NCBI GenBank assembly: GCA_001775715.1
Contig: MEYC01000040.1
Location: forward strand, 20,894-60,542
Direction of reading: 5' to 3'
Origin: Candidatus Aminicenantes bacterium RBG_16_66_30
GTDB taxonomy: Bacteria; Acidobacteriota; Aminicenantia; Aminicenantales; Saccharicenantaceae
Length of the DNA stretch: 39,649 bases
Made by a program: the position numbers and the translations under genes. A model generated the notes under the pieces. That model did no database searches, was not told where the DNA came from, and saw only the letters and a list, made by a program, of their open reading frames with translations. Shown here piece by piece: positions 15,081-30,822 of the stretch (position 1 is its first letter; every line of letters starts with the position of its first letter).

Positions 15081-15370
15081 ACCTCCCTAGGTCGTTCGAA
15101 CCCTCCACTGTCCGCGGATTTCCCCTGCGCTCGCGCCTCCCGACTCGGGGCGTACCGCTCCGTCGGGTCGCGGGCTTGGCCCGGCGAGCCAAGCCCGCTC
15201 GGATCCGGGCCTCGCTCTGGAAAAGGGAAAGCCCTTTTCCATCCGTGCCCGCTTCGGCCCTTCTACGCCCTCCTCCGGGCATCGCCCCTGCGTGCTCATC
15301 GCTCGCGCAGCGAAAGCCTCGATCTTACGGCTTAGATGACAAGAAACGGCACCGGTCTATCGGAGAGAAC
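15081..15370. repeat. Hairpin-rich intergenic region without a gene
   Basis: These 290 bases show no convincing coding frame. They hold a perfect 11-bp hairpin (15170-15198, arm GCGGGCTTGGC, 7-nt loop), a 10-bp hairpin (15218-15241, arm TGGAAAAGGG), and weaker dyads at 15300-15335. The 19-mer at 15240-15258 matches 30052-30070 in the OPT-def gap at 18 of 19 positions. Near the left end the minus strand reads GAGGGTTCGAAC, which resembles the 5' half of a tRNA T-arm, but the rest of a tRNA is absent. I read it as dispersed-repeat or decayed DNA. Confidence 0.5.
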
Positions 15371-27902: not shown

Positions 27903-29948
27903 TTGAGCCATCAACCCTACGTTCCCGAAAAGACGGAGATGAAGGAGTTCACCCTCCGGGCCATCCTCATCGGCCTGGTCCTGACGGTCATCCTCGGCGC
28001 GGCCAATGCCTACCTCGGATTGAGGGCCGGCATGACCATCGCCGCGACCTATCCGGCGGCCGTCATCGGCATGGCCGTGCTGCGGATCATGAAGGGCTCG
28101 ATCCTCGAGGAGAACATCGCCCGGACCATCGGATCGATCGGCGAGTCGATCGCCGCCGGGGCCATCTTCACCATCCCGGCCTTCGTCATCGCCGGCGTCT
28201 GGTCCAACTTCAACACCTTCGACGCTTACATCAAGTCGACGGCCCTGATGTTCGTCGGCGGCCTCCTCGGCATCCTGTTCGTCACCTTCCTCCGCCGGGT
28301 CATGGTCTCCGATCCCGACCTCGTCTTCCCCGAGTCCGTCGCCGCGGCCGAGATCCACAAGGCCGGCCAGAAGGGCAGCCAGGGCTCGCGGTTCCTCTTC
28401 CAGGCCATGGGCCTGGGCGCGCTCCTCTACTCCCTCGGCGTCGTCCAGATCTTCTCCGCCAGCAAGGACTTCCTCCTCAAGGTCGGGAAGATCGGATCGA
28501 GCTTCGTCCGGCTCGGCGCGGCCAAGGACGCCCCGACGATCGGCGCCGGCGGCACCGTGGCCGTCTCCGGACCGGGCATCTATCCCGCGTACATCGGCGT
28601 CGGCTACATCATCGGGCCGCGCCTCGCGTCGCTCAACTTCGCCGGCGGCGTCCTGGCCTGGGGCCTGTTCGCGCCGCTCCTGATGTTCTTCCTGGGGCCC
28701 GATCTCATCCCGACGTTCTACGGTCCGGGCGTGGCCGCGGCAGACGTCAGCTGGCCCGACATGGTCACCAACGTCTGGAAGTTCATCATCCGGCCGATCG
28801 CCGTCGGCGGCATGCTCGTCGGCGCCGGTTTCACCCTCTACCGGATGCGCAAGAACCTCGGCGCAGGTCTCAAGCGCTCGCTCGGCGACGTCAAGAAGGC
28901 CGCCGGCCAGGCCGAGACGGCCTCCCGCATCGAGAAGGACCTCAACATCAAGGTCGTCCTGTTCGGCCTTCTCGTGACGTTCGTCCTGATGGTCTTCGTC
29001 TACAAGATCTTCGCCGGGACCTGGCCGCCGGCCATCCTGGCGGCCGCGGTCATGGCCGTCGCGGGGTTCTTCTTCGCCGCGGTCTCGGGCAACCTCGTCG
29101 GCACGATCGGGTCTTCGAACAACCCCATCTCCGGCCTGACCCTCTCGACCCTGATCATCGCCGCCCTCCTGATGGTCCTCGTCGGCGCGACCGGGATGAG
29201 CGGCGTCTCGGCCGTGCTCGGCGTGGCGGCGGTCGTCTGCGTCTCCTCGGCCGTCGCCGGCGAGATGCTCCAGGACCTCAAGGTCGGCCACATCCTCGGC
29301 GGCACGCCTTACAAGATGCAGATCGGCAACATCTTCGGCATTCTCGTCGCCTCGATGGTCATGTATTTCCCGCTGATGCTCCTCCACGGCGCCTTCACCT
29401 TCGGCAGCAAGGACCTGGCCGCGCCCCAGGCCGGCCTGATGGCCGCCCTGTCCCAGGGCATCGTCGGCGGCGAGATGGCCTGGCCGCTCGTCATCGTCGG
29501 CATGCTCATGGGCTTCGCCTTCATCCTCGTCCAGGTCAAGTCGCCCATGCTCGTCGCCGTCGGCATGTACCTGCCGCTCGAGACGACGTTCGCCATCTTC
29601 GTCGGCGGCATGATCAAGGGCCTCGTCGACAAGGCCATGGCCAAGAGGAAGTTCAACGCCGCCCAGACCGCCCGGGCGACCAACGTCGGCATCCTCCTCG
29701 CGGCCGGCCTGATCGCGGGCGAAGGATTGATGGGCCTGCTCAAGGCGGCCTGGAAGTTCTTCTTCCTCCAAAACATCATCTCCTTCGACATCCCGGTCAT
29801 CTTCAAGGGCGGCAAGTATTTCGGCGTCGTCGACCTCTATGTCGGCGGTCTGGCCGTGCTCGTCCTGATCGGGCTCTATCTCATCCGGGTCCCGCTCAAG
29901 AACGCGGGAGCCGCGGACGAGCCGCCTCCGCCCTCTGCGGTCATATAG
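27903..29948 (+). CDS. OPT family oligopeptide transporter
   Basis: A 681-residue polytopic membrane protein with about 14-16 hydrophobic segments. The start is a TTG at 27903, chosen because AAAGGAG sits 5 nt upstream; the next ATG is 12 codons in. The opening FTLRAILIGLVLTVILGAANAYLGLRAGMT and NPISGLTLSTLIIAALLMV match the bacterial OPT family (TIGR00733 type), which imports peptides or metal chelates by proton symport. A charged loop at about residues 320-345 separates the two halves. No binding protein or peptidase is adjacent. It is divergent from mreB and followed by a repeat-rich gap with no gene. Substrate is unknown. Confidence 0.93.
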   Translation: MSHQPYVPEKTEMKEFTLRAILIGLVLTVILGAANAYLGLRAGMTIAATYPAAVIGMAVLRIMKGSILEENIARTIGSIGESIAAGAIFTIPAFVIAGVWSNFNTFDAYIKSTALMFVGGLLGILFVTFLRRVMVSDPDLVFPESVAAAEIHKAGQKGSQGSRFLFQAMGLGALLYSLGVVQIFSASKDFLLKVGKIGSSFVRLGAAKDAPTIGAGGTVAVSGPGIYPAYIGVGYIIGPRLASLNFAGGVLAWGLFAPLLMFFLGPDLIPTFYGPGVAAADVSWPDMVTNVWKFIIRPIAVGGMLVGAGFTLYRMRKNLGAGLKRSLGDVKKAAGQAETASRIEKDLNIKVVLFGLLVTFVLMVFVYKIFAGTWPPAILAAAVMAVAGFFFAAVSGNLVGTIGSSNNPISGLTLSTLIIAALLMVLVGATGMSGVSAVLGVAAVVCVSSAVAGEMLQDLKVGHILGGTPYKMQIGNIFGILVASMVMYFPLMLLHGAFTFGSKDLAAPQAGLMAALSQGIVGGEMAWPLVIVGMLMGFAFILVQVKSPMLVAVGMYLPLETTFAIFVGGMIKGLVDKAMAKRKFNAAQTARATNVGILLAAGLIAGEGLMGLLKAAWKFFFLQNIISFDIPVIFKGGKYFGVVDLYVGGLAVLVLIGLYLIRVPLKNAGAADEPPPPSAVI

Positions 29949-29955
29949 GATCCAG

Positions 29956-29985
29956 GAGGACATGTACCCGCGGGTACGTGTCCCC
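29956..29985 (+). repeat. GGACATGTACCC palindrome, copy 1
   Basis: Arms GGACATGTACCC and GGGTACGTGTCC pair over 12 bp with one G-U type wobble in the plus-strand RNA. It starts 8 nt after the OPT stop and is followed by CTTTT, so it could also act as a terminator for the transporter gene. Confidence 0.8.
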
Positions 29986-30001
29986 GCTCTTTTGTGAAGA
30001 T

Positions 30002-30030
30002 GGGGACATGTACCTTTGGTACGTGTCCCC
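30002..30030 (+). repeat. GGGGACATGTACC palindrome, copy 2
   Basis: Arms GGGGACATGTACC and GGTACGTGTCCCC around a 3-nt TTT centre, 29 bp in all. The single non-Watson-Crick pair is a G-U wobble on the plus strand, at the same place as in copy 1. Confidence 0.85.
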
Positions 30031-30157
30031 GGTTTGTATGTCCCCGGTCTTCATCCGTGCCCGCTCCGGCGGGGAGCGGACTCTGGGGAGCGACCATCAG
30101 AAGTGCTGCGGAGCAACTCGGAGCGGCACTTCTGGTAAGCATCTAACAGCGATTTTG

Positions 30158-30186
30158 GGGGACACGTACCCAAGGTACATGTCCCC
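30158..30186 (-). repeat. GGGGACATGTACC palindrome, copy 3 (inverted)
   Basis: Its reverse complement equals copy 2 at 28 of 29 positions, the one change lying in the loop. The wobble pair is therefore a G-U on the minus strand, which fixes its orientation opposite to copies 1 and 2. Confidence 0.85.
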
Positions 30187-30254
30187 TCTTCACCCCTGCG
30201 CGGGGCGTTTCCTGCCGTGAGCCTCTCCGCTATCATAAGAACCGCCGGGAAAGT

Positions 30255-30306: not shown

Positions 30307-30822
30307 ATGGCCTTACGAGAGATCCTCATCATTGGCCACCCGATCCTGACCGAGAAGGCCGAGCCGGTCGCCGTCATCGACGAGGAGATCGTCCGCTTGG
30401 CCCGGGACATGGTCGAGACCGTCCACGCCGCCCCGGGCCTCGGTCTGGCCGCCCCCCAGGTCGGCGCCGGGAAAAGGATCATCGTCGTCGACCTCTCGGT
30501 CGGCCAGGACACGGAGGCGCTCCATGTCCTCGTCAATCCGGAGATCGCGGCCAAGGAAGGCGAATCCGTCTGCGAAGAAGGCTGCCTCTCGGTCCCTGAG
30601 GTCCGGGAGAAGGTCGCCCGGCCTTACCGGGTCAAGGTCCGCGGCCTCGACCTCGAGGGCCGCCCCGTCGAGGTCGAGGGCGAGGACCTTCTCGCCCGGG
30701 TCCTCTGCCACGAGATCGACCACCTCGACGGCATCCTCTTCGTCGAGAAGCTCTCGGCGCTGAAGCGGGCCCTCATCAAGAAAAAGTTCAAGAAAGCCGC
30801 CGCGGACGCGAAGAAGGCATGA
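30307..30822 (+). CDS. def: Peptide deformylase
   Basis: A 171-residue metalloenzyme with all three motifs: GLGLAAPQVG (44-53), EEGCLSVPE (90-98, metal ligand Cys93) and HEIDHLDG (His135, Glu136 catalytic, His139). It removes the formyl group from the N-terminal methionine of nascent proteins. The lysine-rich tail (about 155-171) is slightly longer than average. It overlaps fmt by 4 nt (ATGA), the classic def-fmt pair, which in many relatives is followed by rsmB and the PASTA-rpe genes found at the other end of this window. Confidence 0.96.
   Translation: MALREILIIGHPILTEKAEPVAVIDEEIVRLARDMVETVHAAPGLGLAAPQVGAGKRIIVVDLSVGQDTEALHVLVNPEIAAKEGESVCEEGCLSVPEVREKVARPYRVKVRGLDLEGRPVEVEGEDLLARVLCHEIDHLDGILFVEKLSALKRALIKKKFKKAAADAKKA

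Follow-up and report, generated by a model that had tools for sequence, protein, structure and literature searches.

The window, by which we mean the whole stretch of DNA analysed here (39,649 nt), comes from a draft Aminicenantes MAG of 2.08 Mb in 130 contigs (73% complete; G000 below). Three palindromes lie in it between an OPT-family transporter gene and the peptide deformylase gene def, both on the plus strand (Table 1). An earlier note, made from the sequence alone, had described these palindromes as having common arms, which our analysis confirmed, and copy 3 is the reverse complement of copy 2 at 28 of 29 bases. A T-G pair at stem pair 8 gives each copy a direction, with copies 1 and 2 directed to the right and copy 3 to the left, as the note had read them. 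Its statement that every copy keeps exactly one non-pair at the same place held for the T-G pair itself (three of three copies) and not for the full 13-bp arms, since pair 2 of copy 1 is a further mismatch, A opposite C.

Table 1 Features of the window and transposase genes of sister species.
Feature	Position	Strand	Remarks
OPT-family transporter gene, upstream of palindromes	27903..29948	+	Pfam PF03169, E 2.7e-83
Hairpin copy 1, GAGGACATGTACC[CGCG]GGTACGTGTCCCC, then GCTCTTTT	29956..29985	+	8 bp past OPT stop
Hairpin copy 2, GGGGACATGTACC[TTT]GGTACGTGTCCCC	30002..30030	+	
Hairpin copy 3 (inverted), minus-strand GGGGACATGTACC[TTG]GGTACGTGTCCCC	30158..30186	-	
Peptide deformylase gene (def), downstream of palindromes	30307..30822	+	Pfam PF01327, E 3.1e-51
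5'-truncated long-form branched repeat	30052..30207	+	carries copy 3, and copy 2 at broken tip
Internal hairpin of long-form repeat, CAGAAGTGCTGC...GCGGCACTTCTG	30098..30134	.	
Full-length branched repeat, tip GGAAAAGGGAAAGCCCTTTTCC	15126..15309	+	no GGGGACA hairpin; model match E 3.5e-22
203-aa Y1 protein gene, same genus	G009:C4:715325-715933		hairpin at both ends
203-aa Y1 protein gene	G011:C131:29316-29924		78% identical to G009's; hairpin at both ends
203-aa Y1 protein gene	G004:C17:213031-213639		76% identical to G009's; hairpin just upstream

The genome contains about 60–70 small DNA hairpins of one scattered family, as counted by pattern searches, and the three palindromes are among them. 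A genome-wide count of the 13-mer arm, the check proposed in the earlier note, returned 59 exact copies in 2.08 Mb, compared to 0 for a reversed control, and the palindromes are therefore not chance occurrences. With both wobble bases left free, which gives the unbiased count, 56 hairpins were found versus 0 controls: 50 listed (49 T-G, 1 C-G) and 6 from a looser set (5 T-G, 1 T-A), for a total of 54 T-G, 1 C-G and 1 T-A. The looser set was collected around exact arm matches and contains 73 hairpins (T-G in 71). Loops are far more variable than arms: 1.7% of arm bases are off consensus, and 21 different triplets occur as three-base loops in 59 copies, with CTT and TCG favoured in G000 and TCC in the sister genome G005. 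Free-standing copies differ in loops and flanks, unlike fresh duplicates from one parent, and the genomes compared showed neither direct excision nor a clean empty-site junction. Another 63 hairpins were found in G009.

Gene calls from a purpose-made simple codon-usage caller placed 63 of the 73 hairpins between genes, although the fetched loci were 88% coding. Where a gene ends towards a hairpin, the distance to the stop codon was ≤30 bp in 26 of 44 cases. Orientation relative to these stops was unbiased (16/26, p 0.33), a result that speaks against an RNA hairpin as the reason for keeping the wobble, and an RNA-level explanation was rejected accordingly. Seventeen neighbour pairs were separated by no more than 80 bp (9 +/-, 3 -/+ and 5 ++), a small sample in which the lean towards converging +/- orientation is suggestive. 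The motif TTCTT occurred within the first 10 nt 3' of a hairpin 15 times, compared to 0.5 expected. Hairpins of a second type, longer at ~40 nt, occur in G000 at C3:15749, C25:2725 and C78:6980 and in other genera (L050 and L051; G045 and G041); they end in GGGGACATG and CGTGTCCCC and contain an additional inner stem (for example, GATTC...GAATC).

The T-G pair makes the two strands unequal: one forms 13 continuous pairs while the other has a C-A mismatch, with DNA folding energies of -11.8 kcal/mol (13 pairs) versus -9.9 (C-A gap). Among the matches listed, the wobble was present in all 25 copies from G005, and 13 of 50 copies from G009 had a perfect C-G at this place. These perfect variants were always C-G and never T-A among the matches listed, and the constant side is therefore GTGTCCCC (GGGGACAC in reverse). 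The earlier note had taken the conserved mismatch as a sign of selection for a recognised strand; our results do not support selection on the mismatch itself, as about a quarter of the listed G009 copies are perfect C-G, and descent within one recent subfamily would explain the conserved mismatch equally well. In our preferred reading, the wobble is a variant that has become nearly fixed in one arm and is not obligatory. In Escherichia coli, one strand alone is active and an unpaired bulge is required (PMC8266576); by analogy, the enzyme could make use of the strand difference in the present hairpins. GC skew of the sampled G009 segments was too noisy to orient replication strands.

A search of the G000 contigs with Pfam PF01797 and with the sister protein found no Y1 transposase, and none was detected in G005 (96% complete, 45 arm copies). 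The RAYT gene flanked by the same hairpin that the earlier note had anticipated is thus missing from these contigs of the host genome, and a Y1/HUH gene of this description is present in three sister species, all of the same genus (Table 1), the G009 gene being on contig JAGNLW010000001.1. A decayed hairpin copy lies ~620 bp downstream of the G004 gene, and the G008 transposase is truncated, with the first ~62 residues kept and adjoining a hairpin. The sister-species protein is 203–204 aa long and matches Pfam Y1_Tnp alone (E 5.9e-9), with no HTH. It scores 59.7 bits against NCBIfam REP_Tyr_transpos, under its cutoff of 80, and weakly matches E. coli TnpA_REP (PDB 4er8; E 0.0028).

More distant transposases adjoin palindromes with other inner arms. 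A 61% identical transposase in G006 has the palindrome GGGGACACACAC on both sides, and eight genomes of genus g4 (transposases 53–57% identical) have GGGGACACCTGCAGGTGTCCCC-like palindromes; an outer GGGGACA is common to the palindromes of related transposases. On the tree (35 rows), hairpin type requires 4 changes, compared to 12.8 when shuffled (0 of 200 as low), a fit that ties the inner arm of a hairpin to the lineage of its transposase.

Family f2 (L227 = G054:C122, L064 and L065) has GGGGACAYGTAC units in tandem, direct, within inverted repeats around the transposase. G054 was considered as a carrier of the same hairpin on account of the same 12-mer and a 55%-identical transposase, and was rejected because its TIR units are in tandem and form no closed hairpin. 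Horizontal transfer to the distant genome G050 was likewise rejected: G050:C227 (L318) is almost identical to the G011:C131 (L107) contig, with an N gap, and the presence of this hairpin and transposase contig in G050 is probably due to mis-binning. Near-identical stretches were also shared by G000:C14 (L272) and G011:C80 (L282). In both pairs of MAGs the other genes are much less alike; both the G050/G011 and the G000/G011 stretches probably reflect cross-contamination of bins. Short N-terminal RAYT fragments (~40 codons) were observed at G020:C7:342550 and 340761 and on G024:C91 and C69, near or apart from full genes, and are possibly deletion derivatives.

Copies 2 and 3 are 127 bp apart because a branched repeat carries both, and they do not form a simple REPIN. 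The REPIN-like layout proposed in the earlier note is weakened to this extent, as the three-copy arrangement is partly due to this second repeat. The copy at 30052..30207 is without the left half of the branched repeat and shares 92–96% identity with parts of the copies on contigs C93, C95 and C60. The stems of a complete scaffold (~160–175 nt) covary and comprise one at the base, one in a side hairpin and one at the tip, GGGC...GCCC. Folding of one copy gave z -8.1 and, in 14 scaffold sequences with tips replaced by TTTT, 9 of the 27 predicted pairs have changes on both sides. Matches to a model of the repeat were spread over 15 of 21 genera (27 of 60 Aminicenantes genomes, with up to 23 per genome), while a comparison of 17 loci and the window to Rfam gave no gathering-score match, with sub-threshold chance hits alone. 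In G000, copies are found on contigs C7, C81, C127, C6, C86, C89, C82, C75, C90 and others.

The tip of the branched repeat varies. In other genera it is a short CTCTCCTC...GAGGA.CC loop; in this species it is often GAAGAT-hairpin-ATCTTC, with a GGGACTGTCCC hairpin in other copies. At least nine G000 copies carry the tip hairpin and the long form carries one more; hairpin families including GGGGACATGTACC and GGGACTGTCCC are found in the same tip of different copies. A further hairpin family, AAAGAGGGACTGTCCCC...GGGACTGTCCCTCTTT, is found in other copies and species at the same tip or intergenic position (G000 C93, L270, and C95, L043; G011:C95, L284; and the G010 OPT-def interval, L293). One tentative and rather doubtful reading takes the branched repeat for a structured mobile element or RNA not described before, with the apical tip as a preferred single-strand landing site for hairpins; if true, hairpin tips would steer RAYT-type insertion. 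With its interchangeable tip, the branched repeat is a more unusual lead than the hairpin family.

The OPT-def interval ranges from 23 to 477 nt among genomes, with and without repeats: 23 nt in G005, 51 in G008, 81 in G010 (with a GGGACTGTCCC hairpin), 173 in G009 and 358 in G000. Among the genomes compared, copies 2 and 3 are specific to G000. At the place orthologous to that of copy 1, directly past the OPT stop, a hairpin is found in G009, G003, G012 and G002, with some paired changes (for example, GTGCC/GGCAC in G003). Copy 1 could accordingly be a 3'-end hairpin of long standing that was kept at this locus. It scores as terminator-like, with GCTCTTTT directly 3', and could have an additional role as a terminator or 3'-end hairpin.

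We consider it likely that the palindromes belong to a miniature, non-coding, dispersed hairpin family that serves a RAYT/TIRYT-type Y1 (HUH tyrosine) transposase as its cognate substrate; recognition, cutting, movement and strand choice are attributed to this enzyme by inference. Dispersal, arm conservation, intergenic placement, the transposase gene beside the hairpin in sister species and the fit of hairpin type to transposase lineage were all observed and favour this reading, as do the TTCTT excess, the unequal strand folding and the varied OPT-def interval. The missing transposase in G000 and G005, the differing loops and flanks of free-standing copies, the lack of excision or clean empty sites, the non-obligatory wobble and its unbiased orientation near stops weigh against it. 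In the proposed mechanism, one strand would fold into the hairpin when it becomes single-stranded, for example in replication, and the transposase would read the constant GGGGACAC/GTGTCCCC end together with the lineage-specific inner arm. It would then cut beside the hairpin, where the CT-containing TTCTT is often on the 3' side, and move it. The family persists in G000, possibly without its transposase, and copies 2 and 3 would have arrived in, or been carried inside, the larger structured repeat. Transposase-linked hairpin repeats are thereby extended to a deep uncultured phylum, where naturally occurring transposase-hairpin pairs share a constant outer GGGGACA and differ in the inner arm according to the transposase. 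Such pairs could test how the enzyme reads its substrate and whether the wobble marks the strand.

The placement of hairpins near stop codons (26 of 44 within 30 bp) could also mean that they are mainly host-useful 3'-end elements, either terminators or mRNA-stabilising, that were spread or kept by selection and have an incidental link to the transposase. The terminator-like score of copy 1, followed by GCTCTTTT, is in line with this, as is the post-OPT hairpin kept in four sister genomes despite sequence change, including paired changes. However, a fully paired RNA with a T-rich tail would come from one orientation only, yet orientation near stops is unbiased, and hairpins beside the transposase gene and the match between hairpin type and tree would be left unexplained; we therefore regard this account as unlikely.

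Two further readings are less probable still. Arms that are far better conserved than loops and flanks would suit the binding site of a DNA-binding protein, such as a regulator or nucleoid protein, and not a mobile element, but copies cluster at stop codons and not at gene starts, no linked regulator gene was seen and the inner arm varies with the transposase lineage, making this explanation very improbable. Similarly little credence is given to the hairpins being passive cargo of the branched repeat as the real mobile unit. While G000 has branched-repeat copies with tip hairpins and copies 2 and 3 are of the branched-repeat-borne kind, most hairpins are free-standing with unrelated flanks, no branched repeat was detected in G009 despite its 63 hairpins and many branched repeats are without a hairpin. 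For the family at large, the cargo reading is mostly refuted; for copies 2 and 3 it can still hold.

The earlier note had likened the layout of the palindromes to that of REP/BIME/REPIN elements moved by RAYTs. What stands of this is that the hairpins are dispersed and mostly intergenic, that a Y1/HUH (RAYT-type) gene adjoins them in three sister species and, as a suggestion from a small sample, that close pairs lean towards +/- (9/17 within 80 bp). Known REPs are tagged at the foot by GTAG/GTGG (or CGTC) (PMC3733652, PMC6006769). GT[AG]G occurred within 6 nt of the 5' foot in 0 of 73 hairpins, and canonical REP membership therefore fails; a CGTC/TGTC/CCTC tag was likewise absent there (0 of 73), and both canonical GTAG REPs and CGTC REPs were rejected. 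Compared to REP/BIME/REPIN elements with RAYTs (the GTAG class of E. coli and Pseudomonas), the present family is likewise one of small intergenic palindromes with a strand-asymmetric stem, a suggestive lean towards inverted pairs and a cognate Y1 transposase flanked by the repeat, and in both the repeats can persist with the transposase missing. It differs in the GT[AG]G-free foot, in the nearly free loop and in its irregularity, a single T-G pair where that class has a two-base mismatch bulge. The end hairpins of IS200/IS605 are also single-strand hairpins with asymmetric stem irregularities that are read by a Y1 transposase, whereas here there are tens of gene-free copies and the nearest protein family is RAYT (NF047646).

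By motif, the hairpins fit the GGGGWSAS TIR/TIRtron repeats of TIRYT transposases. The right arm in reverse is GGGGACAC, which adjoins the transposase genes in G009, G011 and G004, and the left arm GGGGACAT departs from GGGGWSAS at the wobble base. TIRs with this motif flank a Y1 tyrosine transposase gene, and some of them are self-complementary, with copies dispersed over the genome and arranged in dimers or clusters; Acidobacteria are among the hosts (PMC3733652, Di Nocera et al. 2013). The family described here differs in that each repeat forms an entire short hairpin (~29 nt), with the T-G pair nearly fixed, and in its host, which belongs to Aminicenantes. Most TIRYTs fall in TnpA_Y1 subclass 2.1 (PMC6006769), whose proteins are long and have a C-terminal HTH, while the Aminicenantes transposase is shorter (~203 aa) and Pfam gives no HTH. 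The literature searched contained no report of this hairpin family from this phylum. It is a real RAYT/TIRYT-linked hairpin family, and probably a new lineage within a known kind of miniature mobile repeat.
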